Source: Cyanoderma ruficeps (lineage: Eukaryota > Chordata > Aves > Passeriformes > Timaliidae). From it: a DNA stretch of 64,000 bases. The DNA is taken from the NCBI GenBank assembly GCA_008694505.1, contig VZDJ01007755.1, positions 11,120,596 through 11,184,595 of the forward strand. The letters run 5' to 3'. The notes beneath the pieces were generated by a model. It had not been told where the DNA came from and did no database searches. It was given only the letters and a program-made list of their open reading frames with translations. The stretch's first letter is position 1. Each line of letters starts with the position of its first letter. Of this stretch, positions 13,978-64,000 are shown piece by piece. The translations under genes were made by a program, and so were the position numbers.

Positions 13978-14967
13978 GAATCCAGCCACTAATGGCAAGC
14001 CAGTCAGTATTTACAATTTGTTTTATGCAATGTGTATATGATGCTGCCCATGTGGAAGGACAAATAAATACATTTTACAAATTTATGAACTTGCAAAACT
14101 AGATGTTGGCAGTGGACCATTTGCAATGGCTGTGAAATCAAGCTGCCATTTAACCTCAGTCTGAGCAAGTCTTTTTCTACTTCCTCTGGATTCCTCATAT
14201 GTATTTCTTAAGAAATATACTTGTACTGCAAAGCCTGTATCAGATTCAAGTATCTCTTCAGCTGTTTAACCACAGAATCTCAAACCATTCAGTCGCATAT
14301 TCCCTGGCTGCTCATTATAACAATATTTGCCATTTTAAGTTCCTGGATTACAGTTTGTGCTGGGTTACCTATTCGTGTCCCCACAGAGAAGACTGATCAA
14401 ATCATGTCCCTCAGCCAACTGGAGCTGAGAAAACAAAGATTTTTCATCAGTTTCCAGTTTCAGATTTCCAGTTCAAGCACAGCCTGTCTGCTATAGACTC
14501 ACATACCTATCTAAAAGGCCTTTACGTTTTGTAAAGCAGAATTAGGATTCCAAATGGAAGAATCTGAGTGCTACATACAGCCACGTTTCATGCTCTTTTA
14601 CATGTTTAGCTCCCTTTTGTTTCTTTCTCCTTTTTTCCCCCCTTATTTTGACATGTCAGCAAATGCCTCTCACTGGAAAAGTTTAAGTGTGATTAAATTT
14701 CAGTGATTAAAAGATTAAGTGTAACTTCTGTCTCTACATGAATTCATTTTAAATACTCAGGTCTGACACACCTTTAAATTTTTTCCATCTGAAATCTTTG
14801 CAACAGCAAACTGAAAGAAGTGGTTAATAACTGTATTCACATAGATATGCTCACGGTGATCCTCCCCACTTATGTTTCGGAGTTGTTTCTTGTGTGGCAA
14901 TTTCTCACACTCAAGACAAGAGTGCAAGGAAAGAAATACAGTAAATATACTGTAATAGTTGTCATAC

Positions 14968-15058
14968 ATTCCTGCAGGCATTAAGTAAACAGTCCATTGT
15001 GAGAAGTCAGGATGGACCAAAACAAAGAAAGAAAAGTGTCTAAACCCAATAATGCCAC
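14968..15058 (-). pseudogene. Possible CLC-like relic exon 8 (helix M region)
   Basis: The minus strand reads IIGFRHFSFFVLVHPDFSQ then WTVYLMPAGM and meets a GTATGA donor. CLC proteins have at this point an F-G-Y-G-x-L-F-x-F-x-x-x-(Y/F)-F-x-x-x-x-W-T helix followed by a (S/A)-(S/A)-G-(L/V/M) turn. The spacing from the first G to the W (17 residues) agrees, while W to the AG turn is one residue shorter than usual. The order is right, downstream of exon 7 on the same strand. The acceptor is unclear (a GGGTTTAG inside the block or one further upstream). No later exons were found. Confidence 0.4.
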
Positions 15059-17087
15059 CACTTACCACAAGAAAATTGCCCTTTTGTCCTGCCCATGTAT
15101 CCCACATTTGCTCACAAGCAATGAGTAAGGCCGAGATTCATCCAATCTAACTTCAGGGATGCGACTGTTGCAACCAGGTGACTGACCTCCGACCCTGTGG
15201 CCAGCAGAGAGCACTGGTACCTCCAGGAAGGTTTGGAACACATGGAATGCTCTACACATGGCCAGCCTGTCCACCCTGCACCATGGCAGATGGTGGAGAT
15301 GCAGCCAGACCGAGTTCTTTGCAGGCTGCCACTTGTGCACAGCAGGGACTCGGGATCTATGGGATTTTCTTTAAGGTTTTTTTTTCCGTTGGTACTTAAA
15401 ACTATGCTGTGTGAGAGAAAGGGTCCACTGTTTCAATTTGAATTTCTCCCCACTTATGCAAATTTGAAGTGCCTGGTCAGTATGAACAGTTAAAGACTTG
15501 TTTCTAACTTGCAAACTTATTGCTCCCCTTCTCTCATGAGTATGTTATGAAAGGATTAATACTCAGTCAATAAAAAGAAGTTCCTAGACATCCTAGCAGT
15601 ACTAGACAGCTATAAGTCTAAAGCTAATTAGATGCTCTATGGTAGAGACAGACACTGCAATCCAAATGGCTGAAGACACTTTATCAGGTCCTTCTCATTT
15701 TCCACACACACATTTTTAAGTAAACATGAATGAAACCGAAAACCTTTGAAACAGAACACAGCAGAAGGGGTTTTCACTGGCTGCTTTGCATTCACCAAAA
15801 GCAAAAGGAGTTTTTACATGAGATGACTGTGCTGCATTTCAGTGCTGCATTATTTTTCATCATAATATAGTTATGTAACAGTTATATTTCATTCAAAACT
15901 AATGTTCACGGTTTTATCTTAATTGAGATTAATTTATATTTCTATACAAATGAAGATACACCCAAAATAAATAAAAAAAAATTAGAAAATATTTCAGTAG
16001 ACATCTGGAGAAAAATTACAGGAACACACAACCAGAGTAATAATATATTTTCCAAGCACAAGGTTTCATCCCCTCTGTGGATAGCTATTAAACAGCTCAG
16101 ACAGCACATTTATGGAAACCTTTAAGCCAAGATTTAGCTGTGTGCAGTTGTGACAAGTTGTCAGACAATTGTATCTCAAGCCTTTGTTCCCCTGTATCTC
16201 AAAGATTATAAGCTTATGGGCAGAACACATCTACAACAGACAGATGAGACTGGGAGTAGTTCAGCCTTCACAAAGCTTAGGTCAGGTTTTGTTTTCGAAA
16301 ACTTGACTCTGGGACAGTTCAAACCCAGGTCAACTTTTTGCCAAAACCCTAAAGTCCAAAGGGATTTATAAGGACAGCTAGTCTGAAGCCAGTGGCTACA
16401 CATTTAAAGCAGTAGCCTATCTTCACAGCTAGGTAGAAGGGAAAATAATCCTCTCAAGTATTCCTTTAAAGTTTTGACAGCTTATGTATGAAGTACATAT
16501 GCATATATCCTTAAATTGTCCACCCTGCCCATGGAAACACTGAGCTTTTGGAATAGAAGCATTAGTCAACGTGATAAAAAAAAAAAAATTAGAAAAAGAA
16601 AGATAGCTCTGCCAGATTCTTGGCAAAACATTATCTACATTGTGATTTCCTCACAGAGAGAAAGGTGATGAATTGAGGAGAAGCAAATGCAGGCCAAGGG
16701 GCAGTAGGGCACTCAGAAGACAGCTTCTTCTAATCTATGGGCTGAAGATTAGATATTCAATTCCAGTCAAAGGAATGGTACTCCGGGTTATGTTGTGGGT
16801 GTGGAAGATACCGTGATGGGTTCTTTCCAAGTTTAAATGCAAACTGGTTTATACAAGATTATTTTTGGTTAAAGTCACTGTGACACAGTTTCTTTCAGCT
16901 GCCTCATTATGTGAGTTTATTAAAAAAAAAAAAATTGCATGGTTCTCTCTCAGATCAAACAGTTTCTTTCCTGCCTTTTTCTGCCAAGTTATAATAAAAT
17001 AAGGACTGTGACCTGAGCAGAATCTTCTAGAGCTAACAGAAAAGAAAAAACAGTCCGAATAAGAGTTCATGCCACAAAGTTAAGGTT

Positions 17088-17107
17088 AAAAAAAAAAAAA
17101 AAAAAAA
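17088..17107. repeat. A20 homopolymer
   Basis: Twenty consecutive A, followed by further A-rich sequence to about 17122. No retroposed gene body is recognisable just upstream. Confidence 0.95.
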
Positions 17108-18840
17108 GAATTAAAAAAAATACAGGATTAAGGCTAAAATATATATACTGAAAAGCTCTATAAGCACCACAGCCCTACAAAACACATGCTGTTCTCCCAT
17201 TTTCAGGTATGAGCTGGCAAGGTGCTAATCATTCCATGAACTTTTGGAGTCAGCAAGGCACCGCTTCGTAAACAACAGAAAATAACTCTTAGAGGAGTTT
17301 TCTTAGTGTTTTCTTTATGTCAGGCACTAAATATTTTCTAGATGATCTTACATTTAATTCTGTAGTGTCTTCTAACCTACTGGCTCTTACTGGCTTGTGT
17401 TGATGCATGTTTTGGTTTTTATTCCAGAGAGTAATAAACAGTGGTTTTTATGTGCTTCAGTAGTTTATGCAAGGTTTCTGTGATGTACCATGAGAAAGCC
17501 AAAGGCTTCCCAGTGGTAGGGGAAATGGCTGTCAGACATAGCACTCCATCTCCAAATTGTTAGAACAGTAATTGTTACAAACGCAACCTCTTGCAAGCAG
17601 AGGTCCTTTGGAAACCATGGCATTTCCACTAGTGGGAGTCACACGTGGGACCCCGCTCATCGCCCTGCTGGATTGAAAACTGGATTTTGGTTACAATATC
17701 TCATTGCAGTGCTCAACAGCACAGAGCCACGAACCTGTAGAAAGACAGGAGCAAAGCTATAGCACAACGTGAGGAAGGCTGGGCAGGGGAAAGACTCTCC
17801 CTAAGGCTGAGACATCCTGTTTCCTTACTGACCTTACTCACTCTTTCAAACGTGGAAGCAAAAAGCTTGCAGTGAGGTTCATCGGGGTGTGTTCCCTCAG
17901 GAGATGATGAGCAAACACAGCTGCCAACAGAAATGCCAGCATCCTGCCACTAAGAGGAGCTGAAATTCAGCTGTCATCAACAGCACGGGCATGCTCCAGC
18001 AAAGCCCTTTCACCGGAATCCCTCCTCCTCCTCTTCCTCCTACCCAGGTCAGATTTCACCTCCGATGTGCCAACACAGAGAACCCAACAGCAGATTGCTG
18101 CTCTGACCAGGATCAGGACCAGGCAGAGGAGGTGGTGGACTGCCAGAGCATACACAGAACTTCCAAGAACTAAATTAAATGCACTCTTTCTGACCCTATG
18201 GAGAGGTAAACCATTGGGAAACGTGGTTTTCACATCTGTACCTGTGGAGGCCTGTTTTCACATCTCTCTGTGGAAGAGCTTGCAGAGACTTGGTCATGTG
18301 CCTCAACCTACAGTTATTTACACTTTTAGCTCCAAAAGCTTCCTCTCTCATATTTTAAATATTGTTTTCCTCCCAGTATCATGCAGGCTTGTCAATGCAA
18401 GTCAAGGTGATTGCCTTTCTCTGAAACTTATGTATTTTTGCTGGCTGAGAGTGGAAGCTGCTGAAGGGATGTCTGGGCTGATGGGAGGAGAGCATCTCTA
18501 TAGCAAACTCACTGGTCTTCAGTCAACCAATCCTTTCTCCAATAGGCAGAGAAGAACGAGCAGAATATATATAAAAAACCAAATATGGCATACATAAAAC
18601 ATACTGGCAAGTCTGCCTGGAAGAGGGTAGAACAAAGGGGCTTCATTGTGCACCAGTTTCCCTAAAGATAGGTTATCTCAACACTTAAAAAGACTGGAAA
18701 ACTCCTCAGAAACAATTCCTCAAAAATAATGGAAATGAAGAAAACATATGACAAGCAGGCATTCAGTAAAGAAACTTGCAGAGAATCTTAAATTGCAAAA
18801 TTTATTAAAAGCCCTGAAGATTTTCTTTCTTCACATTTAA

Positions 18841-19160
18841 TCATAGAATGGTTTGCATTGAAAGGGACCTGAAAGATCATCCAGTTCCAATATCCCTGCC
18901 ATTAGCAGGGACACCTTCCACTAGACCATGACCTTGAGCACTTCCAGGGATGGGGAGTACACAACTTCCCTGAGTGATCTTGTACAGTGTCTCACCACCT
19001 TCACATTCAAGAATTTCTTCTAATATCTAATCTAAACGTGCCTTTTTTAAGTTTGAAGCCTTGCACCCCATTCTGTCGCTACATGCTCTCGTAAAAAGTG
19101 TCTCTCCAGCCTTTTTTGCAGCTCTCAGCCTGCAACTCTCTCAGCCTGTCTTTATAGAAT
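18841..19160 (-). mobile_element. CR1 LINE 3' fragment
   Basis: This starts TCATAGAATGGTTTGCATTG and runs through AGATCATCCAGTTCCAA, TCTCACCACCTTCACATTC, CTAATATCTAATCTAAACG and CTCTCAGCCTGTCTTTATAG. This is the standard antisense order of the CR1 3' region. It lies in the intron-like interval between relic exons 7 and 8. Confidence 0.93.
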
Positions 19161-19719
19161 TATTAACTTCATAACATGCTTAAACTATAACGAAAGCATA
19201 AAACTGAAAAGTATTAAAATATTCAAAATACAAGAAGCCTTTGCCTATACCCTTTCTTTTCCAATGGTATGACTCTCCCTAAAGACATATGATAACAAAT
19301 GGAAACTCCAAAGCCTAGATGTAAAGTGGCCCCATCATGTCTTAAGAGGACATTTCAAGCTCTCCATAGATTGCAAATAAATGCAAAAGCACACCAATAC
19401 AACTGCTATGTGTCACTAAGCTGATAAAGTATCATCAGAGTAGAAAAGCAGCTGGAGAGTGACTCTACAGGTAAAATACTTCAAACATAAAAACCAAGCC
19501 AAACTGAACCAAACAAAGAAAAAAACATCTCCTCTATTCTTATATATGTACCAACATTAAATACATATATGCATTTTGAAAATCCATGTTTTCTTTACTC
19601 TGTTGCACATTATTAAGTACCAGCAGGTCAGACTCACTTTTTCATGCAGCAGTTTGTGACCTGCCCTCATTAATCTCTGTAAATGTTATATAATTAAGAG
19701 AACCGTATTATTTACTTAC

Positions 19720-19908
19720 AAAGATAAACACAGTCTCCAAAAGGTTGCTTGTTTTTCTAAGGGATGATTTTGGAATTGAATTAAAGAACTGCATATGTAA
19801 TGGATTCATCTTTAGGGAAAAAAAGAAAGCTCCTAGAAGACCTCTAAACATTCCAAGGAGGATGGTTGGAATGAAGGCCAAGATGTTCATGTCCAGAAAG
19901 TTCTTAAT
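19720..19908 (-). pseudogene. CLC-like relic exon 7 (NILAFIP and GLLGA block)
   Basis: This is the best preserved block: 189 bp, 63 open codons, phase 0 at both ends. It lies between a TTTCTCCTTTCTTTGACTCAG acceptor and CTTT|GTAAGT. It includes MNILAFIPTILLGMFRGLLG, then A-F-F-F-S-L-K-M, and ends LRKTSNLLETVFIF. CLC proteins have F-I-P-x-x-x-(I/L)-G-x-x-G-G-L-L-G-A-x-F here, followed by a charged linker and LLE-like helix start. One Gly of the GG pair is Arg. This residue pattern, with good splice sites on both sides, makes chance very unlikely. Confidence 0.85.
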
Positions 19909-19991
19909 CTGAGTCAAAGAAAGGAGAAATCTGCTCTGAGCATCCTGCCAGTGACATGAATTATTGCATCCTTTCTCACAAAACCTGATAC

Positions 19992-20117
19992 CTCAAAGTA
20001 ATTTCCATGGAAGAAATAAATCTTTCCTTTTGATTTAGAGAACTCAGCTAATTCATTTAAAGCTGATCTCTTCTTGCACACCTCACAGAAGTGGAACCAA
20101 GCAGGTAGACACTGGTG
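19992..20117 (-). pseudogene. CLC-like relic exon 6 (LTW block)
   Basis: This 126-bp block (42 codons, phase 0 at both ends) lies between a TTTTCTGCTCTGTGTGCCAG acceptor and GAG|GTATCA. It begins HQCLPAWFHFCEVCKK and ends KIYFFHGNYFE. It corresponds to the CLC stretch W-N-x-x-L-(T/S)-W-x-x-F-F-C-x-M that follows FSLEE, then the connector to the next helix. The initial VSSFW-type residues are missing, unless a less typical GTGCAG acceptor further upstream is used. It joins exons 5 and 7 in frame. Confidence 0.65.
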
Positions 20118-23100
20118 CTGGCACACAGAGCAGAAAACTATGATGTACTGCACTTGCCACTGGCACTCAGCACTTCAGGTTACATCTGAATAACACAATA
20201 TAATGGCTTTAATGAGCACTTCAAAAGACTTTGCTGAATCAGAGCTTTGCTGAATGTTCATTTCTTAAGTGTCAACCTGCATCCATGTGCATTGAGATAA
20301 TTTCTAAGTAAATTTATTTAAGTAAAACTGTGGAAATTCATGCTGAGCTAGAACAACTCACAAAACAACAAATCACAGGCACAGAACATAATCTGGCAGC
20401 TGTAATAGTAATTGAATTTTCTGCTTGACTCCTCAACAAGCAGCAAGGATGAAAGTAATATCATGTTTTAATTTTATCTTCCAGGCAACAAAATGGGGTC
20501 GAGAGGTTAGTGATAACCTATTAAAAGCGGTGAGGATTTTATTTCCCTAGCCCAGGTTTAGAGTTACACAGGTTTTTGTCATGATTAGGATCTGAACAAA
20601 GTGCAAGATCATAAAATGGACAAAAAGCTACGTGCCAGGATGCAAGAATGTCACATGTCAAGAGTTGCCTGCAAAAACCCCTGAACTGGTGTAACCTCGT
20701 GGTTAGTGGATTGGACAAACCATCAGCTGTCAGCCTGACTTGAATTGCTTAAGCATGAGGTCCTCTTATTCAAATTCTATTTTCTCCTTCTTTTTCTTCT
20801 TGCCCCTAATCTTTTTCTTGTTCTTGCTACTAATAGCCTAGAGTTTAACAAATTCACCAGGTGGCTGTACTAAACATGAGTGGTATTTCCTGAAAAGAGA
20901 AATGCCAGGGTTGAAATGCATCCAAGCTTCAAGTGCTGGTCCACAAGGTTCTGCAGACAGAAGAACTGACTCTGGAAGAGGGAGAATCCCAGGAGCCATT
21001 CCCAAGCACCAGAAGCTCAACACCTGCATGTACAGTCACAGGGAGTAGGGACAGACCAAAGGTGTATTATGCCTTAGAATCAGGATTACAACAATCACCT
21101 ACATAGGTATTCTGTGTACTAAGCAAAGCTTTAATAATGCTAATTTTACCAACAGATGTAACAATATCCATCTCTTTCCACAGGCTTTAAAGAGATCTAA
21201 TATTTAAGGTGTCGAAATTCACAGGGAACAAGCTCAATTTGAAGTAGAAAAAAAAAATCTGGTTTATTTATTCAGGATCCAAATATCTTGCATTATATTC
21301 GACTTAGTTCCAATCCTGCACTAAGACTAAGAATAGACATACATGATTTTATTGTTTTTTCTCCCTACCCCCATTCTTGCTAAGGGAAAGATATACTGAG
21401 ATATTTGCTTTCAAGTACAATATGCACATTACACTGTATGTGTGTGGCAGTAAAGTCAAGAGAGTATTCCAGAGGCTGGAAATGAAAGGTGGCACAGTAT
21501 ACACTTTGTTTTTGTTGTAATATAAACCACAAGTTTTGGCCAGTCATCAAGAAAAAAAATGGTACCTACAGAGCAAGTTTCACCTTTAGAATTAATCCTA
21601 TGGTCTATGTAAAAATAAAGTGAAGTTTCCTGAAAATCTCATGCTCCGGAGTACAATAAATTCCCCTGGTAACATTATGCTAGGTAGAATGAAACTAAAA
21701 AATCCAAATAATTTCTTGAGAAACATAACCCACATGCTTTCAACTCAGTTTATTCACTGTAAACTGTGTTCTGTTAATGCCACAGATTATACAAGAAACA
21801 AAATTTCCCCTGAGCCTCATGTTCAGTGAAATGAAAATGTTTCTGCTTATCTGTACCACATTAAGAGCCGAAAACTTATTGAACCCTGCCAGAAGTTATG
21901 TTGTCAATAATTTTAACTAACTTTTCCCTCTAGTAACACTAAGAGAAGATAGAAGGAGACAGAATCCACTGCTCTTTTCAGAAAACATCCTCAACTGAGT
22001 GTTAAAAGAGCAAAGCTTATTGTAAAATAGCAACAGAAGTGAATCCACTTTCCCCTCTGCATGCATCTGTTCATTACACAATACTTTGGTTTCAGCAATG
22101 AATCTGGCTTCAGAAGGCTTGAGTTCTTCCCTGCCCATGTGGCCTCATCTTTTTGCCACAAACTTTCATCTTCTTGGTGTGTAACTGCAGTTGTTTGGGC
22201 ACCTGTTCGATGGGTTGGTCCACAGAAAGGAGTTGGGTGGAAACACAGTGCCTTCTTCACTTTACCCTGCTAAACCTGTGGTAAAGCAAATATATCAGGG
22301 AGCATGCATGCAAGAAGCATTACCCATTTTCCCAACTGAGATATAGCTACATGTGGAAAATGCCGTGATCTTTAGTTTCTGCATTGCTAGAGGGATACAA
22401 GCCAGAAGAAATTCAAAGATGAATGAAAATTATTTGGCAATTATTTTAGGAAAAAAATAGTAAAAAGTAGCAAAAAGTGGATTGGGATTCAGAACACCAG
22501 GAGTTCATTTCTAGCTCACTAATTGATCTCCAAGTCAAATACAAAGAAGGGTATTTAGGCTGGAAAAAGTGAAGATCCTGATACTGGCACTTCACTATTG
22601 AATCATCATCATGAGCAATAAAAATGAATGAAAGACATGAAAATAAAAGTAACTACTTTTAGGTGGACATAAGGTAAAAGGTTGTGTCAGGCTGGAAGGA
22701 ATAAAGCAAAAGTAGCTGAGGCTGAAGGTCACCTCCATTTTGCAACTAGGAACAAATAGTGATTGCATTTTTTCAAATGTTTAATCTGTAAGCACCAAGG
22801 AACAGGGGCACAGTACAGCAATGCCTACAACAACAACAGAGTGCTTGAGCCAACTACAGAAAGGGAGGACAGCCTATTTAAAAGCTTCTCTGCTTTTCCC
22901 TTTACTTCAAAGTATCTTCTTCTATCCAACACCAGCACAGAAAATTATCTCATGAATAGCTAATAAGCAAACAGTAGATGTTTTGTCTGTTCACTAAAAT
23001 TTAGAACAAAACGCTCTGTGTTGTGTTTAAGTGATTTCCAGATGTAAAGTGTGAAGGCTTCCATAACCCACAGATCTGATAACTGTCCATATCCCAGCTT

Positions 23101-23329
23101 TCCCCCTTCTCTCATACTGCCCCAGCAAAAACACTGGAAGAGGCAAGCCTAAACCCCTGCATCTACTTCCTCCCACACCCACACAGTACATACCCATAAC
23201 AGAACTCTTATCTCTCAAAAAATCCAAAATGACCCCTGCAAACACACCCCTAGAGAGAACAGTAAATGCCTGGTGAAAGTGGCCATCAAGCAGCAGCAGC
23301 AGGTTTGCCAGGCCAGCCCGATGTCTCAC

Positions 23330-23400
23330 TTCTTCTAAGAAGAACAAGAGTCTGCTGATGACAGCACAAAATACCAAAGCTATGCCTGCTTGTGCACCAG
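23330..23400 (-). pseudogene. CLC-like relic exon 5 (AGAAAG to FSLEE block)
   Basis: This 71-bp exon follows a long pyrimidine tract ending ATTACAG and stops at GAAGAA|GTGAGA. It encodes, after a split Ala, GAQAGIALVFCAVISR then LLFFLEE. The family pattern is AGAAAGVAAAFGAP(I/V)GG(L/V)LFSLEE. The AG-A-x-AG start and LLF-x-LEE end are kept, but the GAPxGG turn is replaced by CAVISR, removing the Gly and Pro residues that shape the ion pathway. It ends in phase 0, which matches the next exon. The 251-codon open frame across this site (23027-23782) is a read-through artefact and not a protein. Confidence 0.82.
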
Positions 23401-23966
23401 CTGTAATGAAACGGTGCCAGCAGCAGGTAGAAGTGACAAAATGTGGGTAACAGGGGTAAAAAAAAGAGAAACAAAACCCACCATCATTTCCTGTCAAAGC
23501 TTGCTGGTATATTATGGGGTTATTATAGTGCCTTGTATCTCTAGGATGTGTGTTCAGAGATGTTTGCCTTAACAAAATCCTCAGCCCCATAGCACCGTTT
23601 GGTATCACATGACAGTCAGCTGCTGAACTAGCACCAAACAGCCCAAGAACAGGCAGGTGTGCCACTTCCCACCCTGGAATAGTGCACTCACAGGAGTGAG
23701 ACACTGCAGGGAAAAAATGGTAAGACACCTTGGGATTCACTACAGAATAAGAGCACAGTCCTGGAGCCTGAAGGCTCAACATGCTGCCTCAGTCTGTAAA
23801 TGTCTGAGAAACCCACATGGAGTATGTGCCTACTCCCTTCCTGTAAAGGTGTGGAGCCCACATATGCCCCAAGGAGCAACTCCATTGCTGTAAGCAGCAC
23901 TAGGAGCTCAAATAGCAGAGATCTGCACTGTGAGCCATTCCAAGTAAAGAAAAAAAAAAGGGGGGG

Positions 23967-23967
23967 N
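23967..23967. other. Undetermined base (N)
   Basis: A single N within an A-run followed by a G-run, a typical assembly or base-calling uncertainty. Confidence 0.99.
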
Positions 23968-24757
23968 GAGGAAAATAATTATAGTATTATAAAAAAGGCA
24001 TTAATGGGCAGTCTTCCTTGAACATCTATATTATATATTTTCCCACACACAACATAATTTTCTTTCCAAAACACCCATTTTGTTCTATTAAAACAACATC
24101 CTGCATCAGACAAATGTTACATTTTTAAGGGAGGCCACAGTGTGCAAAACAGGGAAGGCTTTAGAAGGAGGAAATAAAATTATGCTTGAATTCTGCCTTA
24201 GAAAATTAGACTCAAGTCCAGCCTTTGCAGGGGTTACTGGAGTGATGCTGATACATCTAATGAACTAATCAATAGTACTGAAAATCTTATAAGACTTGCA
24301 TCCTCTGGATGTGCTACCTGACACCTCAGGGGTAATTTCTAGACATGCTGGGCATTCGGTACCAGTTGAAGTCAATGAGTGTAAAAAACACATGAGTATT
24401 TTAAAAAGTAACAAACAGCAAATTCTCAGAAAAAAAAAATCAGAGTAATCTCTAAACATCTGGAGGCCCTTTTAACTTCTCTGTAGTGTTCACAAGTTTT
24501 ATCAGACAAGGACAGGTAGCAGTGAGGATAGTGGAGAGAAAGCAAGGGAAAAAATTAAAGAGGTGTCAAAGCCCTTAACAAAGCTCACTGGTAAAGTCAC
24601 ACAATTAACTTCATATCTGATTTCCCAGCTCACAAATGCTAAGACACTTTTGTGCATGGATTTTTACTTCCATGTGGTACTTTCCCAGTGACATTGTTTC
24701 GAGCAGAAGGGAACTCAAGAGGCACTGCATGCCTCAGCACTAGCTGGGCAAGCTTTC

Positions 24758-24896
24758 CTTGGACATCCCCAACTTCTTGCTCCTGGCAGCTGTACGTGCT
24801 ACGTGTCCCACCAGTGGTATCAACAACGAAATTGGGCCCTTCCAACACATCCAGTAGAGCTCTCCAATGGAGAAGGCCTTAAGTGCCTTCAACAGC
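24758..24896 (-). pseudogene. CLC-like relic exon 4 (degenerate GKEGP block)
   Basis: The minus strand reads FSIGELYWMCWKGPISLLIP and then LVGHVARTAARSKKLGM. This aligns with the CLC block G-G-L-x-V-G-K-E-G-P-x-I-H followed by G-x-x-x-x-x-x-x-SK-x-LG. Only the final GP and the SKxLG tail survive, and the GKEGP glutamate region is replaced by CWKGP. The 5' edge is uncertain: a TTAG acceptor would give 24896, but homology starts nearer 24850. At the 3' edge the expected donor reads AAG|GAAAGC, one substitution from AAG|GTAAGC. The short exon that should lead to the next AGAAAG block was not found. Confidence 0.6.
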
Positions 24897-26159
24897 CTAA
24901 TACTTGCTGAGATACTGCTCTGCCTGTGACTGTACCTGGAATGGGTACATCTCTCAAGCCTATTCAGCACCAGAAGGTACCAGCAGAGTGGGAGTTTGTC
25001 ATCCTGGTGTTTGTAAAGAGGAGAAGTCTCACTCAGACTGGCATTTGTCTCTGCTGCTCACCAACAGCCCTCTCTGTGAAGGGGACTGCCATACAACCTG
25101 TTTCCCCCAGATGGTTCCTGACTGCAAGCTAGTGCTTCTTTCTCATTAACTGCATCCTCCACAAAAAAACAAACATTTTCTCCACTTTTCTTACCACAAT
25201 TGCTAATTTCTCCCATGAGTAACATTTTGTTTAACCAGCACATCTCAGATTTATTTAAATGACTGATCTTAAAATGCTAAAGGTAAAGGACATCCCATCT
25301 CTTCTTTTTGATGCTTTTTTGATTTACTTTTAAGCTACAGATAGTTCACAAGTGACTGTTCATTCAAATTCTGGTTTTTGAGCAAATTAACACACAGGAT
25401 TCTCTTTTTTTATCATTATTTTAAAAGACCAAATAAGGTTTTATATGTTAACAGGACAATAAATATCATCCAGAAGTCATAAAGTGGTTGCATTTTCTTT
25501 TCCTGGAAACTAATGTGATTAATTTCAGTAGAACTGCTCAAAAGAGAGTTTATGAGCATTATCTCACAGAGATTCGTGAGGAGAGCCAGACTAAAAAAGT
25601 GTCACAATCAATTTACTTTTTCAAAACTCAAAAAATAAGGCAAAGACCCACTGTGAACACTGGGCAATCCCCATAATCTCTTTATTCCTGGGACAGCATC
25701 ATTAACTTAAGGATGAAGTCCATGAGTAAAAATCCTGCTTTTTCTCCCTCCTTATACAGCCCAGAAAGCAATGGGAAAACATCTTTTGTATTAATGTATT
25801 AAACAACTTGTGAACTTTCATTTAATTAAAAAAAAACTTTAAAGCTGTTTAATTAAACAACTTCCTTCTAATTAGAGTGGTGGCTTTTTCCCCCATTCCA
25901 AAGTGACAAACAGCAGGAATGCTGAAAGATTGCTGGTGCAGCATCTCTGTTTCCCTTCCAGAGGCAATGGGGTCACCAGTGACCCACCAGACAATGCTGG
26001 GGCATCGAGGGCAGGGGTGGGGTGGCCCTCACAGAGCCCCACATCTCTGCCCATCACTTACTTTTTAGCTGGTGAAGACTGGGAGGTGGCTGCCAGTGGT
26101 GTCCAACTGCAGCTGGCTCAGGCCACAGCCCAGGAGAGCACTAAAAGTGCTGTTGTATA

Positions 26160-26860
26160 ATTGAGAGCACTCTTTGGTAAATTATTCATAAATCAGTTAA
26201 AGGCAGAGGAGGACAAAGCCCTAAAAGCAGCAGTAAAGCCAGATTGGTTTCAACAGATTTAAACACGGAAAATGCTGAACACGTCATTCAAATATGCAAA
26301 GTCCCACTGACATAAAGGAGGAAGCTACTGAAGACTCTCAGGTTCTTGACTCAGAGATTTAAATGTTTCTTTTGCAAAGATGATGGCAGTCCATGAAATG
26401 CCTTTGAAGAATTGCATGTTAATGTCTGCCCAAGTGTGTTGACACATCAGACTAGAGCCCATCATTTCAATCATCTGTTCCCAGGTTAACAACCACGGCA
26501 GCCAGAACAGCCCTACTTCTAACAGAAGACGTGTGATGATTTAAATTATTACAGCGTGTTCCCAGGCAGCACTTCAAATTACATTTAAATGGGGAAAAAA
26601 ATTCCAAATCCTTAGTGGAATGAAAAATCTATTCATTGTATAATCTTGGAAGACTTTTCTACAAGACTTAAATTAGGAGCCTTAATAAATCTCACCGAGG
26701 CTTTTAGCAACTTACGTTGTGTTTATGTTTAATAAAAATGGTGGAGGGTTCCAACTAAATTAAATTAAACTAGCTCTTAATTCCTATGTTTTGAAAAGGC
26801 ATCACGTTGATACTGTGATGACTTTATTCATGGAAATATGATTCAACTCTTTGGCTCACA
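26160..26860. other. Repeat-free, balanced-composition stretch; possible conserved noncoding element
   Basis: This segment lacks transposons and ORFs. It carries many AT-core motifs (ATTTAAAT, TAATAAA, AAATTAAATTAAAC) separated by mixed sequence, the texture of many vertebrate developmental enhancers. It lies within an intron of the CLC-like relic. Sequence alone cannot establish conservation. Confidence 0.25.
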
Positions 26861-28253
26861 AATCACTGTTACCAACCCAGCACGAAGGAAAAAAAGAAAT
26901 CACAGCTGCAGTCTCTGAGCTCCTGGAGACAAATGTCTGAGAGCAAAGAAAACAAAAGAAACCAAAAAGGATAGCTAAGCCTTGGGAAGCATTGTCTAGA
27001 AGGTTTGTGGCCACCTCTGACTAACCATGCACTCCTATTTTTGAGCATCTGAGTCATCCCCGAAGATGCTGCACCTCTGTGCAAATAAATAAATAAGTAT
27101 AAACCCACACAGCAACAGAAAATGTGAATGGTTGGTGGGGAGGAACACATTTGGTCAGGGTGGTGAAGAGGGGAGAACAAACCTCAAGGATGAATACTTT
27201 CCAACCCCAAAAAGGATCAGAAATAAAACAGCAAAACAGCCAACAAACAATCTACATCCTTTCAGCAGAGACCAATTCTACCATGTCTATTCAAGATATG
27301 CTTCCAGATAGGAAATAAAGCGCAGCAGGATTCTCCTCTGAATGATGAATAAAAGAAATTATGTCACTTTCCAAAACAAACAAAAAACCCCAAAATCTGG
27401 CCTGCAGTTACCAAGTTTGATTGTATTGCAACACAGCAAATTTTAAGATCCTCTCTGACCCACACAGGAAGACCAGGCAAGCCTCCTCTATCCCCCTCAC
27501 AAGGCCAAGGACAACGGCAGGGCAATGGGAATTCTCTTCCTTTGTACATAAGAAAGCGGCATAAAAACATTATCCTTCAGAAAGACTATGAACTCTAGTT
27601 TTCCCCACCTAGAAACACAGGGTAACACTACTGCATCAAAAACAAGCCGCTCCAGCCCAACTTGCAATCTGCCACCTGCAGAGCAGCTCCTGGTTCCTGC
27701 AGTTGCCCTCAGCTGGCACTGGTGGCTGCTGTGTTCCCAAGCTGGAAACACAGACCCCATCAGTCTGTGCCTCGCACAGCCACCTAGGGCACTTCTGCAG
27801 GTGGCTTTAAAATTACTGTCCCTGTTGTGTGAAGCCACTTGACACGAGCTTTATTTTTATACAGACTCTGCACAGGTAAAAGCAGTTACAGGAGATGTGA
27901 AGCAGCCAGCAGGCCATGGCTGTGTGGCAGGTGTTTTCAGAAACAAAACCGACTGCAGTTATCCACATAACTGCTTGCTGAGCATCACTCAGGGAATAGT
28001 ACTAGGGAACCAAGCCAGTATTTAAAACACACAGAAAACAAATCCTTTCCTTCACTGCATGGCATGAATAGTTGTGCTAATGCAAAAGGGATGGGGAACA
28101 GCACAGGTGAAAAGTGCTCCTAGTGCAGGGTATTTTTTAAGCCAGTGCTGCTACTAAGCCAAATGTTACAAAGCCATTCTCTCAGCCTGGTAGCTTTAAC
28201 ATTGAGAATTGCTATTTCTCACCCCAAATGGATCATGGGACCTCCTGGCTCAC

Positions 28254-28399
28254 AGAGGAGCCCTGTAGGCTACAGCCAGCATGCATGAGAGAAATATCCC
28301 TAAAAATGTCTTGATGTTAAAATGATGTTGAATAGAAGTGCCATTCAAAATACCCAGTGATTTCTGGCAAGCCAGACAGCAAAGCTTCTGGCAAAAGAA
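28254..28399 (-). pseudogene. CLC-like relic exon 3 (SGxPE and LNGT motifs), frameshifted
   Basis: This 146-bp block follows a very long T-rich tract ending CCTTTGCAG and stops at a GTGAGC donor. In one frame it reads LLPEALLSGLPEITGY, matching the chloride-pathway signature P-x-A-A-x-S-G-x-P-E-x-x-x-Y-L-N-G. In the next frame it continues LNGTSIQHHFNIKTF and FLSCMLAVAYRAPL, matching the LNGT and following helix of the family. The two frames meet inside a run of four T (28347-28350); family members would need three. This is a one-base insertion that breaks the protein about one third into the membrane domain. A sequencing error in the homopolymer is possible, but the other lesions argue for true decay. 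Confidence 0.8.
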
Positions 28400-28406
28400 C
28401 TGCAAA

Positions 28407-28508
28407 GGAAAAAAAAAAACCAAAAAAACAAAAAAAAAAAAAAAAAAAACAAAAAAAACAAAAAAAAAAACAAAAAAAACCAAAAAAAAAACCCAAAAAA
28501 ACCCAAAA
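28407..28508. repeat. A-rich low-complexity tract (T-rich on minus strand)
   Basis: About 100 bp of A runs interrupted by C or CC. On the minus strand it reads as T runs and directly precedes the CCTTTGCAG acceptor of relic exon 3, forming an exceptionally long polypyrimidine tract. Lysine-rich open frames over it are artefacts. Confidence 0.95.
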
Positions 28509-30475
28509 ACAGAGTCAACAATTATTAAATGTTGATGTGTTAGATGTGTCTATGGACAATTTTTCAGTGTGACCCTCACCTTGCTCTGTTCACAAACACT
28601 TTCCCAGAATTAGCAGACAACACAGATGCCCATATAGCTTCTGGCAGTGCACAGAAATTCAAGCTCCTGACAGTGTTGCTATAAACATACTGGGGCTAAT
28701 GAGAGAAGAAAGCAACTGACAAGGGCCCGTCCCAAGCCCCAGCCTCCATCCTGATTCCTGCAGCCCATCAGTCCTTGTACAGGTTGTCTATGGGGCAAGG
28801 TGTACATGTGAACCCCTGTAATTTGTCCAGTCAGTTTGGTCTTTAGAAAGCTGAAACCTGCTCAGTTATTGTATGCATAACAGCAAACTCCCTTTTCCTA
28901 CTGTTGGTGGATTTGGGGGTAAGTCTAGTAAAATATTCACTTTTTCTCTCACCTATGCTGTTAATTGCCTGTCTATAATTAAATTGAACACAGCAGGACA
29001 GTAAATGACAGAAAGGCTGAATGTTCTAGCTTTGGTGCCTCATAAATTACTAACCTGGGCCACATGCAATACCCACACAGCACAGCTAAATGATCAATCT
29101 AAAACCAACAGGAACTTTTATATGGACTGATGGTCTTTGGCTTAGGTCCCTTCCAAACATTGAGTTTTCATGAGTTATACCAGCTGCCACTTGTATTTAT
29201 TTTATAAACACCACATGCTAAGTGTAAATTGCATCGCCACCACCACTGATTTCACCCCAGACACTTTTAATACAAGTTACGGGTGGTGGAATCCAGGTTT
29301 AGGCTGAAGGCCAAGAAAGACCTCTCCAATGGGGTTGTATAATTGAGGTACAATTGAGGAGCTTTTTTTTTTTTTAAATAAAATACTGAAACAACAAGTA
29401 TATGGAAAAGGAATATATTTGGTTTAACAGTGTTACTGACTTGTTGCATAGGAGACCTGACACTTGCCAACACAGAACCTGTGGAGAGAACAACATGCCC
29501 AGAAGCACTCACAGCCAGGTCATCAGCACCCAGAGACCAGGTCCTGCTTTTCAGTCATCTTTTGTACTACAAATTTCTGCAGGCAGAAGATATATGATAG
29601 GGAAAAAACAAAACAAGCAATGCACGCTCTTCAGAAGGAAGGGAGTGAATAAGGGTAAGGTGAATGATGACTGTCAAAGTCATGGGGTTTTTTTCTAGGA
29701 CTTCCTGCCCATCTCTAAAAACTCTATAAAGGAAATGTCATTACTCCTCAAGGCCCTTTTCAGGCTAGAAGCAGGGTTCAAGTACCTTAAGAATAAATAC
29801 AAAAACACACTCCCGGATGTCTTCAGGCATTTTACCTGAATGGAGCCTTCAAAGTCTTAGATCAGTGATGACCTTAATGAATTTGCAGCTATTATTAGTA
29901 GACAGAATATACGTGAGGAAGTTGCTTCCTGCTTTATTTAAACCAGAAGCACATCTCTCATACGGGGCATTATCACATTCAAAACATGTTTTGTTCACCC
30001 CAGGTTTTTGGTCGGTTTGTTTGTTTGTGTTTGGGCTGACCACGTGCACGCTGCCTCCAGACTTCCTCAACTCCCACACACTTTGCTGCCTTCCGCAGGG
30101 CTCAGCTGTGACACATTGTGGGTGCAGGTCAAGCACATCCCTGGCGTTTCTGAGGTCACAGAGTTACAGCCTTCCCAGCAGCATGTCCCATCAAGTGTTT
30201 TGTAAACGCATCATGCAGTACGGCCAAACAGCAAAGCAAAGTGCACAAAAAAAAGAGCTTTGCTCATCTGCAGCTGAAGGAGGTATTCGGATGGGAAGAT
30301 CTTCCAGGGCAGGAATTACATGTTTGTACTGATGTCTGAGCTTACCTCCTGCCCTTCTGTATTAATAATACAATAAGACAGATTTTATAACAGAACAGGA
30401 CCAAGAGTGTGTGTAACAGTTGTTGTGATGACCTGGAGTCAAAGTGTGGTTTCTTTCTATGTATTATTTACTTAT

Positions 30476-30605
30476 ACTTTAGTGTGTATATATACACACA
30501 TGCTTGTATATACATACAAATGCATATATACACATTTGCATGTGTATTTATCCACTGTTTATGTATTTTATAAACATACACATAGTTTGTATATAAAAAA
30601 GGGAA
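30476..30605. repeat. TA/CA-rich microsatellite-like tract
   Basis: Imperfect repeats of GTGTATATATACACACATGC type and TATACATACAAATGCATATA. It is rich in short palindromes and lies just left of the LINE. Confidence 0.85.
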
Positions 30606-30719
30606 ATAATATTCCAAGAGGATTATATATGCTTTCCTAATGGAAAACCTAAACTTGTTCATTTTTTTAATATTTCCTCTGATATATTCAGCTTCCATCT
30701 GTTTTGCAGAATAACTCTT

Positions 30720-31735
30720 CCCTTGCATTTCTGAAGTACACTGAGATCTGTCCTTCAGCAGTTGGCAGTATTATTCCATTATTTTGAGTCCACTCCAGAA
30801 TACTGGAGGACACATCCACATCTCCATTGCACTGGAGAGCCCAGAACTGGACCCAGTACTCCAGATGTGGCCTCACCAATGCTGAAAAGAGGGGAAGGAT
30901 CACTTCCCTCAGCCTGCTGATAACCCTCTGAATGCAGTCCAGGAACCTGTTGGCCTTGGATGTGGCCTATCAAGAAGCACTGCTTCCTTTTATTTTTACT
31001 TTTGTCTGCAAGTTTGCTGAGGGTGCACCAAAGCATTATCCCATCATCCAGGTCATTAGTGAGAACATCCAACAGTATTTGACCCCTGGACCGACCCAGG
31101 GTATATCTTTGAGGACTAGACTCTGGCTGGAATTCGTGCCACTGACCATAATGCTTTGAGCCCAGCAGTTCCGCTAGGTAAATCCATTCACTGTCCAAAC
31201 ATCTAATCCATACACCATTAGTTCATCTATGAGACTGTTATGGGAGACAGTGATGAAAGCCTTGCTAAAGCTGAAATAAAAAACAGTCACTGTTCCAGTC
31301 ACGTCACTGTAGAAAGTTGTTGTCCACTGTAAATCCATGCTTGATTTTGCTTGATTTACTCATTGGAATGGACAGCTCCTCACCATGGATGAAAATCAAG
31401 CAGCCCTCTTGGACCCCAGCTCTCTCCAGGATGATCTCCTCTGGGATTCTTCCACACAAATCTCTGAACAGACCAAAGTGCTCTCCTGAAGTCCAGTCCC
31501 TCACCTTTTCCCCCTCATGTCAGGATCCCATACACCCCAATCTCATGGTTACTGCTGCCCTCAGCCCTCACATCCCTGATCAGTCTTTTGTTCTCTGCAA
31601 ATAAAAGATCGAGCAGAGTATGTCCCCTCATCTGCTTCATGATCACCTTATCAGGAAGTTGTTATCAATGCACTCCAGAAACCTCATGGCTTGTGCCCTG
31701 ATGTGTGTCCTTCCAGCATGTATTGGGATGTTTGG
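30720..31735 (-). mobile_element. Degenerate CR1-type LINE with reverse-transcriptase remnant
   Basis: The minus strand retains the RT motif (D/S)FSKAF as FYFSFSKAFITVSHNSL (about 31215-31290), followed by LDVWTVNGF and a broken LNDLDDG-like stretch. Upstream come an FRDLCGRIPEEI stretch and MRFLECIDNNFL typical of these LINEs. The 3' portion shows CTCCAGATGTGGCCTCACCA in antisense. Stops and frameshifts are frequent. It lies inside the second intron of the CLC-like relic. Confidence 0.85.
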
Positions 31736-32300
31736 CTAGACTCCCACAAAGATCTGGGCCAGTGACCACAAGACTTCTTCCAAACATCTGAAAACAGCTT
31801 TGCCTAATTCCTCAGAGTTTACAGCAGACATCCACACCACCACCCCATGTGTTGGTGTGCCCTCTATCACTGCTCTGCAAGCTCTCAGCTGACTCTCATC
31901 TCTACCAAAGCAGAGCTCCAACCATTCCCACTTGTAACTGTGGTGTGGCCTTCCTAAAGAGCCTCTCTCCAGCCACTGCAGTGCTACAGCAGTGACAGCT
32001 ATCCCACATCTGTGCAGACAAGGAGCTCCTCTGCCTTGCTCCAGCCTCAGTGAGAAATCCTTGGCCCCAAATTTGCAGAGCTGTACCCTCCTCAGCAGCT
32101 TGCTCTGGGCTGTGGCCTCTGCTGAGTCAGGAATTTCTCCACCGAGTGCTGGGGACCACCTCTGGTAGCTCACTGCCACTGCTGCTGAGCACAAAAGCAC
32201 TGCCAGCCCAGATCTTGGCCTCCTTCTGCACAAAGCTGCTGGCTGCATGCCATGACTGATGGTTTTACAGGCTCCCCCCAGCACCAGCTGCCAGGATTCC
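31736..32300 (-). repeat. Possible 5' continuation of the LINE, or unclassified repeat
   Basis: A GC-richer block directly follows the recognisable LINE and is open for 182 codons on the minus strand (31736-32284). The frame is rich in Leu, Arg, Ala and Cys without any motif I know. Its abrupt composition change and adjacency suggest LINE upstream sequence, but I cannot prove this. Confidence 0.4.
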
Positions 32301-32524
32301 TCACCCTGCCTGGTCAGGATTCAGCTGGAACAAAAGCCCCTTCTCACAAGAAACTCTTCAATTATACCATCTACTATTATTCATTTATACCATCTACTAG
32401 AGATATCACAAGCCAAGTAAAAATTTTACCATCTGCTTCTTTCTACAGGTGAGGAAAAGCAAGCAGTCAGGGTCAGAGATGCCTTAACACTTACATTGGT
32501 TTCATCCATCCAGTGATTTTTTAC

Positions 32525-32598
32525 CACCACCATTCCAATTATCACAAAGCTAATGATAGCCATGAAGGACAAATTAGTATTTCCACAATAATCTATCA
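32525..32598 (-). pseudogene. CLC-like relic exon 2 (possible helix C)
   Basis: This hydrophobic block follows a TATATTTTCAG acceptor and reads GNTNLSFMAIISFVIIGMVV. It sits where the CLC helix C exon belongs, between helix B and the SGxPE exon. The donor is ambiguous: GTAAAA directly after the helix, or a better GTAAGT at 32494-32489, which would extend the exon to 32495. Starting from the preceding exon's phase the acceptor leads straight into TGA, and neither donor matches the phase of the next exon. So either the exon is broken or I have its edges wrong. The assignment rests on position and hydrophobicity more than on residues. Confidence 0.45.
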
Positions 32599-32990
32599 CT
32601 GAAAATATAGCTGGCCCAGACACAGAGTGAAATAGTAGGTCTGATACCAAGTCCACACTCACTAAGTACCTTAATGAAAGTTAATCCCTTCCCTTGGACA
32701 TCACCCAGACCTAAAGCAGCACATGCGTCTGGCGTACAAGGAGGAAGAGGAAGGCCACAGTGTATTAAAGACTGTTTTCATCAATCCCATAACAAGCACA
32801 AAATCAGATATTATACTGTATTATAGGCCAAGCTGTAGCAAAGGACACCAACGTGCATGTACACAAAGGACAAAGGGATCTGATCTCCACACCCACCTCC
32901 ACAGGCAGCACCTTCAGGCAGTTAAATCTTGACACTGTGCATTTTCTAATAAACTAACATGGAAAATGTCACTGACTTTCTCTTGCTCAC

Positions 32991-33120
32991 CTGCAGGTAA
33001 TTTTCCACCAGGTTCCATTTCAATTTGATGAGAGACTTAATTATCTGATGGATCAAAAACCCCAGCACCCCCACTGCTGTTCTTATTAGCCCCATCAGCA
33101 GCCATTGATTCCACTCTTTT
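32991..33120 (-). pseudogene. CLC-like relic exon 1 (helix B)
   Basis: This 130-bp block lies between a TTTTTAG acceptor and a CAG|GTGAGC donor. It is open for 43 codons after a one-base split codon, beginning KEWNQWLLMGLIRTAVG and ending KLKWNLVENYLQ. The W-x(3)-LMGLI-x(3)-VG-x(2)-GFLIH pattern followed by LKW is the first long helix (helix B) of CLC proteins. The conserved Gly after LMGLI is replaced by Arg in LIRT. The block ends in phase 0. An upstream N-terminal exon would have to end in phase 2; I could not identify it between 33.1 and 40 kb. Confidence 0.8.
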
Positions 33121-33424
33121 CTAAAAACAAGGAGACACAGTTACCTCTCAGACCATAACACAGGGTTATTTGCCATGCTGCCTCTCACAAAGACACAAAT
33201 TCCATTTTTAGAGCATTTTGATTATAACCTGTGACTGCCTGAACAACCGGGTGTTCTTGCCAATATCCCTTTTAAAAGTGTACACTCAACAAAGATTTAC
33301 CTTCAGCTGAAAGTCATTTTCATTTGGGTAAGGAATACAGTTGGATTTTCTGGTTTTGGATTTGTTTTTTCTTTAATATAGAAGTACCAATGCAGTCTGA
33401 TCTCTGATGTTGAATGCTTGATGT

Positions 33425-33584
33425 CATATCAAAATCAATTATATGATCCAGTAATTAAACATTTGGTAGAGCACTCTGAACACATTTCAAAGTAATCCCT
33501 GTTTCATATCAAAAGCAATTATATGATCCAGTAATTAAACATTTGGTAGAGCACTCTGAAAACAGTTCAAAGTAATCCCTGTTT
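33425..33584. repeat. 80-bp tandem duplication, two copies
   Basis: Copies at 33425-33504 and 33505-33584 begin CATATCAAAA and end AATCCCTGTTT. They differ at only a few positions, so the duplication is young compared with the neighbouring LINE copies. It lies just upstream (minus-strand sense) of relic exon 1. Confidence 0.96.
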
Positions 33585-34480
33585 CCTTTCCCTGCAATAA
33601 TGCCCTGAGCACCCATCATGTAAATGTGCGAACTTTTACCTCCAGTTCTTGTCTTCCCTAAACTTACACTTCTAATAATAACTGTGCACCAGTAATGACA
33701 GATTTGAGTATCACCTAGTATGTAGGACTAGAGCAGGCCTACTGAGATTCAAACACCATGGTTCCTGCAGATTATGCTGAGAAAAAAAATTAGAATTAAT
33801 TACTTTTAATAGTAATTTTAAAAATTAATTGTAATTTAAAAATTAATTGTAATTATTTTCAAGAAGTCTCAGTAAAAGAACATTTGCCCCAACTTCTGCC
33901 AAGTCTCTTCCTTTTAAGTTGTATACATTGAGAAGTTTGTAATTCTTTTTTGCATATTCCGTAAGTTGTGAAGAACAAAGACACAAGCACTTACAAAATA
34001 TGCTGTTAATCCCTTGGCCCCTTTCCACATTCAAAAAATATTTCTTTTCATATTTAAAATTTTCTTAATTCCTTCTGCTATCTGGCATCTACCTGGAGTG
34101 TCCAAATTACACACAGTTTTAGAGGCAACTTAACACAATTTAAGGTAAGTTTACCTGTATGTTTTCCTTTCTAGCCACTTCTTATAAACCTTTTTGTGTG
34201 AAGCCAAATAATCCAGGCTTTCATGGGCTAGCAGGTGTTCTCCCTACCAAAGGTACTACAGCTTGGATGCTTTACCAAGTTGCAAGTTGGCAGCTTGGAG
34301 AGGAGAAAAAGACTCAGTGCATGTCAAATGTCTACAGTAAATCAGAATCAGCAGCATGCCGTGTGTTTGCCACCTCCAAGGTGTGACTTTGGTAACCAAA
34401 GAAAGAGTACAAAAGGATTTCTGCTGCTCTCCACCAGCTGGAATTTGGACCAATTTGGCAAGGTCTCATCTGAAATAATC

Positions 34481-34868
34481 GTAGAATCACAGAACCATAG
34501 AATGGTTTGTATTGGAAGGGACCTAAAAGATCATCTAGTGCCAAACCCTGTGCCTTGGACAGGGAGATCTTGCACTAGACCAGGTTGCTCAAAGCCCCAT
34601 CCAACCTGGCCTTGAGCACATCCACAGATGGGGCATCTGCACTTCTCTGGGCAACCAGTTCCAGTGCCTTACCACCCTCACAGTGAAAAATTTCTTCTTA
34701 ATATCCAATCTAAACCTACCCTCTGGCAATTTTAAAGCATTCCCCCTTGTCCTTTCACTACATGCCCTTGTAAATAGTCTCTCTCCATCTTTCTTGTAGG
34801 CTCCCTACCGGTACTGGAAGGCCATAACTGGGTCACCCCAAAGCCTTCTCTCTTCCAGGCAATGAAGA
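34481..34868 (-). mobile_element. CR1 LINE 3' fragment
   Basis: This is a long, well preserved antisense CR1 end: GTAGAATCACAGAACCATAG, GGAAGGGACCTAAAAGATCA, CCCCATCCAACCTGGCCTTG, ATATCCAATCTAAACCTACC, and CCCCCTTGTCCTTTCACTAC. Confidence 0.95.
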
Positions 34869-44559: not shown

Positions 44560-44706
44560 TTAATTATTGTAAGTTTGTCCCTCTGGAGGTTGTGGAAGCT
44601 TCATATTTTCTTTGGACATCATTAGACGTCTTAGCTCTTGAAGTACAACTTTAATGCTATATGAATTTTGCCATTTTGCTAACACTGGTATGCTCCGTGC
44701 ATCCAC
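44560..44706 (-). CDS. UBE2V2: UBE2V2 (MMS2) terminal coding exon 4, residues 98-145 and stop
   Basis: This is the last coding exon. It follows a pyrimidine-rich TTTTTCCAG acceptor and carries 48 codons plus TAA (147 bp, phase 0 start). It begins [20 protein letters not shown], continues through [20 protein letters not shown], and ends [18 protein letters not shown] and the QTYNN end identify UBE2V2 rather than UBE2V1. With exons 2 and 3 and seven expected residues from exon 1, the total is 145 residues, the usual length. There are no frameshifts or premature stops, so the gene appears functional. The 3' UTR continues to lower coordinates on the minus strand. Confidence 0.97.
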
Positions 44707-50311: not shown

Positions 50312-50437
50312 CATTCCATTGGAATTATTTATTCCATTCATATTAATTTTAGTTACAAATCTAACTGTAGGAGGTGCTTCTGGGTATTTAGGTCCACACT
50401 CTACTTTCAGACTGTATATTCTGTTTTCATAGTTTGT
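50312..50437 (-). CDS. UBE2V2: UBE2V2 (MMS2) coding exon 3, residues 56-97
   Basis: This exon encodes the central sheet of the UEV domain. The 126-bp exon (42 codons, phase 0 at both ends) lies between a TTTCTAG acceptor and an ATG|GTAAGT donor. It begins [20 protein letters not shown] and ends [11 protein letters not shown]. The residues TNYENR, KVECG, PPTVRF and GINNSNGM are those of UBE2V2; UBE2V1 differs at several of these positions. The single Cys falls at residue 69, which has been reported in human UBE2V2 as an electrophile-sensing cysteine (known from literature, not shown here). No HPN catalytic motif is present, as expected for a UEV. It joins exon 2 across a 3.3-kb intron and exon 4 across a 5.6-kb intron. 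Confidence 0.97.

Positions 50438-64000
<13,563 letters not shown>

Follow-up and report, generated by a model that had tools for sequence, protein, structure and literature searches.

Decayed exons beside UBE2V2 in Cyanoderma ruficeps: a likely unitary pseudogene of an animal CLC-C-like gene

A 64,000-nucleotide stretch of the genome of the passerine Cyanoderma ruficeps raises the question of whether short minus-strand blocks that resemble the CLC family of chloride channels and exchangers are the remains of a gene and, if so, which gene was lost and when. The stretch, referred to here as the window, is C480:11120596–11184595 of a 1.025-Gb assembly in 481 contigs; positions are counted from its first letter, and negative coordinates lie to its left (C480 position minus 11120595). 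We found a decayed, intron-containing CLC gene on the minus strand, downstream of UBE2V2 and with its exons in collinear order. Eleven decayed exons lie inside the window and five further exons to its left, so that the gene spans approximately 75 kb, from 34.2 to 7.2 kb and then beyond the window to about 40 kb to its left. The locus is very probably a unitary pseudogene of an animal CLC-C-like gene that was lost in the passerine lineage and whose intact relatives are predicted exchangers. We favour this reading because the exons are collinear and carry lesions, the gate glutamate is lost, no second copy was found and full-length orthologues exist elsewhere.

Detection of the CLC remnant

A tblastn search with P0233, a full-length orthologue of 831 residues from the bird Leptosomus, gave 17 matches at E ≤ 1 × 10−3 over 144 kb (the window and its flanks), all of them on the minus strand and none on the plus strand. 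At the same threshold and over the same 144 kb, reversed P0233, 30 shuffles and two CLC-7 proteins all gave no match. A collinear CLC remnant on the minus strand beside UBE2V2, as first proposed by a sequence-only reading of the window, is thus borne out. Chance likeness of scattered membrane-like frames had some points in its favour: early searches with other members of the CLC family gave weak matches (E 0.002 at best for CLC-6 and CLC-7 queries on the window, with a cysteine-rich stretch and an A-rich tract at 28.4 kb scoring too), and three of the blocks first reported were indeed chance. Several of the best CLC-6 and CLC-7 matches were nevertheless on the minus strand, ordered 33.1, 28.4, 23.4, 19.9, 10.4 and 7.3 kb. 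The 17 minus-strand matches of the orthologue against none on the plus strand, together with the empty reversed and shuffled controls, refute chance, which we regard as next to impossible. Only 2 of the 9 pieces scanned matched the Pfam Voltage_CLC family (PF00654), with E values of 0.0088 (23 kb) and 0.016 (19.9 kb); their scores of 15.7 and 14.9 bits are below the cut-off of 24.8, compared with 240–276 bits for the intact orthologues P0233, P0158 and P0264.

Exon structure of the gene

For the exon map, P0233 was used as the reference in a frameshift-tolerant alignment of 17 segments, of which 15 were clearly placed; with the later addition of E3, 16 of the 17 are placed, in order and all on the minus strand. 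Residue numbers and identities below refer to P0233. Upstream of the membrane region, E1b (34154–34240; residues 55–83) encodes an N-terminal cytosolic piece with the motif HESLDYL, identical at 23 of 29 residues, with no lesion and an E value of 4 × 10−10 with P0123. The first membrane helices are encoded by E2 (32991–33120; residues 84–126; 35 of 43 identical, no lesion), which has both splice sites intact (acceptor tttttag, donor gtgagc). E3 is a remnant (29468–29523; residues 132–153) with a score of 52 that was reached by none of 200 shuffles; it has a stop at 29511, a 1-nucleotide deletion, three missing codons and a GC donor. Three of four other references place it identically and the fourth gives an overlapping position. 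The anion-site and gate motifs lie in E4 (28222–28399; residues 154–212; 42 of 56 identical, three frameshifts), in which SGLPE is present and GPEGP has become EPGGP. An A-rich tract of about 90 bases (28409–28509; T-rich on the strand of the gene) abuts the E4 acceptor and generates spurious poly-phenylalanine frames.

E5 (26044–26139; residues 213–244) is identical at 20 of 32 residues, with a stop at 26067 and an ungapped score that none of 300 shuffles reached. E6 (23194–23413; residues 245–324) covers the FITAGA...LEE region, with 53 of 72 residues identical, four frameshifts called and four residues absent. E7 (19717–19908; residues 325–390; 48 of 64 identical) is open and keeps both splice sites; the donor gtaagt shares bases with the final codon read. 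E8 (14876–14968; residues 391–421; 22 of 31 identical) also has an ungapped score reached by none of 300 shuffles. E9 (10933–11038; residues 422–455; 25 of 33 identical) carries a frameshift at 10966 and a stop at 10959; E10 (10293–10476; residues 456–516; 42 of 60 identical) has stops at 10434 and 10350 and a frameshift near its end at 10302; and E11 (7238–7391; residues 517–570; 39 of 51 identical) has a 2-nucleotide deletion at 7307.

Outside the window, the alignment with P0233 places E12, a membrane exon near −9 kb (−8930 to −9097), E13 (−24282 to −24461), E14 (−37094 to −37192), E15 (−38187 to −38279) and E17 (−40258 to −40401). Sequence encoding CBS domains appears near −24.3 kb (the first domain) and near −40.3 kb (the end of the second). 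No placement was found at the locus for E16, which encodes the core of the second of these domains (score reached by 21 of 200 shuffles), or for residues 1–54 (33 of 200 shuffles). Splice sites survive at both ends of E2, E4, E7 and E13, at the acceptor of E12 and at the donors of E6, E9, E11 and E15. The persistence of introns and splice sites, with exons distributed across about 75 kb, refutes the idea of a processed or retrotransposed CLC copy; we found no point in support of such an origin and assign it a negligible probability.

This map revises the initial one considerably. Of the eight blocks that the sequence-only reading had listed, those at 33.1, 28.4, 23.4, 19.9 and 15.0 kb are exons and those at 32.6, 24.9 and 20.1 kb are not. 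The block at 32.6 kb, taken as the helix-C exon, scores 17 and was dropped, the exon being re-placed at 29.5 kb (E3; 29523–29468, score 52); in an ungapped test, the score of the helix-C exon was reached by 26 of 300 shuffles. Neither of the other two blocks has a match to the orthologue: in place of 24.9 kb the exon is at 26139–26044, and the exon near 20.1 kb starts at 19908. Exons at 34.2, 29.5, 26.1, 11.0, 10.4 and 7.3 kb, as well as the five outside the window, had been overlooked. Both ends of the interval first delimited, 14968–33120, coincide with exon boundaries: E2 has its acceptor edge at 33120, and the matched codons of E8 begin at 14968, three bases in from a likely acceptor. The gene extends over several times the length of this interval. 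Between E1b and E2, the intron contains an 80-base unit in two tandem copies (33424–33585, approximately 96% identity).

Lesions and changed residues

The aligned exons contain nine in-frame stops (29511, 26067, 10959, 10434, 10350, −9023, −9095, −24369 and −40369), although −9095 is the last aligned codon of E12 and perhaps an exon edge, and 10959 and −40369 come after a frameshift. There are 11–13 frameshifts: E6 accounts for four, E4 for three, E17 for two and E3, E9, E10 and E11 for one apiece. The range reflects two E6 calls that are only 4 bases apart and one E17 call at the first residue, perhaps an edge effect. These lesions bear out the initial view of the gene as decayed.

The substitutions point the same way. 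An alignment of 19 intact animal sequences has 137 invariant columns, of which 121 are readable at the locus and 26 of the readable ones are changed; seven held-out intact birds have 0, 2, 0, 1, 0, 1 and 0 changes in the same 121 columns. The gate glutamate, retained in all 19 intact orthologues, is a glycine at the locus (EPGGP), and the glycine two residues ahead of it is also changed. Overall, 504 of 666 readable residues are identical to those of P0233. In a phylogenetic tree, the end branch of the pseudogene has a length of 0.38, 5–10 times those of its intact sisters (0.044, 0.035 and 0.071 for Calidris, Leptosomus and Amazona, respectively). With every long reading interrupted and parts of the gate, pore and CBS domains damaged, the locus most likely yields no working transporter in this bird, as judged from its sequence.

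Search for a second copy

Of the 15 matches that a parrot orthologue gave across the whole assembly, 8 fall at this locus, and the remaining 7 belong to other CLC genes (27–58% identity); the exons of CLC-6 and CLC-7 sit elsewhere. No second copy of the CLC-C-like gene was found in this search of 481 contigs of uncertain completeness, which upholds the unitary status first proposed. A turkey gene model named UBE2V2 (P0185) is fused to CLC-C-like exons in scrambled order, which gives some support to the neighbourhood of the two genes. The alternative that this locus is a spare, decayed duplicate and that a working copy resides elsewhere draws on the possible incompleteness of the assembly, as bird microchromosomes are often absent from assemblies. 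We consider it highly improbable, given that no matches other than those to other CLC genes were found away from this locus and that the locus lies beside UBE2V2, as do the orthologue exons in the turkey model.

Relatives of the lost gene

To place the gene, we searched a database of 5.8 billion proteins with the exon read-through, a sequence of 453 residues of which about 28 came from the incorrect 32.6-kb block. The 66 hits (best E 3.6 × 10−129) comprised 60 clusters from birds and 6 from squamates or frogs, mostly named CLCB protein or chloride channel protein B-, C- or D-like. Full-length models are present in non-passerine birds, reptiles, amphibians and sharks (for example, P0229, P0233, P0237 and P0230), in agreement with the suggestion that the transporter was lost in this bird lineage; the chicken entry, P0138, has 491 residues. 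With the frog orthologue P0158 as the query, there were 231 hits at E ≤ 1 × 10−10. The best 120 of these include frogs, salamanders, caecilians, turtles, alligator, squamates, birds, sharks, rays and bichir, as well as acorn worm, sea anemone, clam, brachiopod and sponge. No named hit among the same 120 is from a mammal or a teleost; some rows are nameless, and we treat this absence as a lead only. Sequence, tree and exon order all identify the CLC-C-like proteins of non-passerine birds, reptiles, amphibians and cartilaginous fish as products of the same gene; they are open full-length or partial models, whereas the Cyanoderma locus is broken. In the caecilian Rhinatrema (P0223), the first CBS segment is repeated in tandem, perhaps by exon duplication or through a model error.

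The sequence-only reading had described the motifs as closest to a ClC-6/7-like and plant-like branch. This holds for solved structures, among which an intact orthologue scores highest with human CLC-6 (344 bits), CLC-7 (331) and plant CLC-a (285), followed by CLC-3 (175) and CLC-2 (126). In the tree, however, the CLC-C-like sequences form one animal clade of their own (support 100/100), apart from CLC-6/7, and no grouping with either CLC-6 or CLC-7 was obtained. Inside this clade, the pseudogene, the row of which contains about 28 residues from the wrong E3, joins Calidris, Leptosomus and Amazona (100/98). The root is a single CLC-5, and with long branches for CLC-5 and CLC-a the deep branch order is unsure.

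CLC-6 and CLC-7, which are late endosomal/lysosomal chloride/proton exchangers, share the gate and LEE glutamates with the CLC-C-like proteins but fall in a separate clade and have a GKEGP gate. The lysine position of this motif is occupied by proline in 18 of 19 CLC-C-like sequences and by glutamine in one frog, and 17 of 19 have a full GPEGP. For plant CLC-a, a sister relation lacks good support, and its GPGIP motif contrasts with SGLP or SGIP in most CLC-C-like proteins. The anion-site serine is replaced by tyrosine in turtle P0219 (PYGLP) and by cysteine in alligator P0224 (PCGLP), changes that may alter selectivity; two frogs have phenylalanine in place of the tyrosine near helix R. In CLC proteins, the gate and LEE glutamates have roles in exchange. 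As all 19 intact sequences aligned retain both the EE pair and the glutamate of the gate, we predict that the intact relatives are chloride/proton exchangers like CLC-6/7.

Timing of the loss

The assembly contains two growth-hormone genes, on C325 (L044) and C55 (L045), which match the chicken C terminus at 71 and 73% identity. Both carry YLKVMKCRRYGEGNC, and prolactin-type loci are found separately on C480 and C454. A second growth hormone is reported from all major passerine lineages and as lacking in other birds (PMC10016047); the two genes therefore point to a passerine host. CLC-7 was of no help in placing the host, since among the 25 matches listed, at 92–97% identity, galliforms and passerines were intermixed.

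Only one passerine, the hawfinch (P0186), occurs among the 60 bird clusters; each cluster name shows one member, so that a passerine could hide inside a cluster. The remaining clusters are taken to be from other orders. P0186 has no Pfam match at 1 × 10−3. It is collinear with the Cyanoderma locus from 14433 to −40401, enters intron sequence after E15 and reads E11 in the shifted frame made by the 2-nucleotide deletion at 7307. The record looks like a gene model that was laid across this same decayed locus, intron sequence included, with fewer lesions in E9, E10 and E13. As the E11 deletion is common to both birds, we infer that decay was under way before their lineages diverged. The loss may be passerine-wide. 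The CLC-C-like gene would then have been lost in the passerine lineage, its remains persisting beside UBE2V2.

Some observations weigh against a unitary pseudogene lost in the passerine lineage. E1b, E2, E7, E8, E14 and E15 have no stop or frameshift. A copy may exist on a chromosome missing from the assembly. The exon order of turkey P0185, the sole relative to show adjacency to UBE2V2, is scrambled, probably through an assembly or annotation error. The shared E11 deletion is deduced from a protein record, and most lesions are unshared: P0186 lacks the E9 lesions as well as the stops at 10434 and −24369. The unshared lesions also favour a recent loss limited to the branch of Cyanoderma and hawfinch, with a working gene in other passerines, as does the fact that the passerine evidence consists of protein clusters. 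We consider such a restricted loss rather unlikely, although much less so than a decayed duplicate: the decayed hawfinch model is the one passerine entry in the 60 bird clusters, even though passerine CLC-7 proteins are present in the same database, and the end branch of the pseudogene is 5–10 times as long as those of its intact sisters.

Surrounding sequence

UBE2V2, the neighbouring gene, is upstream of the CLC remnant on the same strand (44563–53919, minus strand). Its three open exons encode residues 7–145 and match by tblastn at 95–100% identity (53919–53767, 50437–50309 and 44706–44563). The window is CpG-depleted, with a GC content of approximately 0.4. A dispersed repeat family, with members that are 76–88% alike, is present at 2442–2561, 18839–18928, 34493–34669 and 51539–51699; we take it to be CR1-like.

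Implications

We found no description of the CLC-C-like gene or its loss in the literature searched, which covered few subscription papers; a term search of PMC4377847 was without match. A survey of zebra finch ion channels lists nine CLCN genes for both finch and chicken, with no novel paralogues (PMC6679542). A vertebrate CLC gene therefore seems to be missing from a detailed ion-channel survey, though the chicken entry P0138 exists. The same source describes passerine losses of CLCA, BEST4 and CATSPER2, likewise ion-transport genes missing in the same order. CLCA is reported there to have left no trace, whereas the CLC-C-like gene, absent from the survey, left a readable remnant.

A wider proposal, for which we see the case as evenly balanced, is that a deep, unnamed animal CLC subfamily with a GPEGP gate extends from sponges and sea anemones through sharks, frogs and reptiles to most birds, was overlooked because mammals lack it and was killed near the origin of passerines, the largest bird order, which would still bear its remains next to UBE2V2. 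Human-based gene lists would tend to overlook a lost predicted exchanger of this kind. If the loss is order-wide while relatives keep the gene, passerines would be a natural knock-out in which the role of the gene is testable. The altered motifs of the intact proteins (the GPEGP gate and the tyrosine or cysteine at the anion site) would test models of chloride–proton coupling in CLC proteins.

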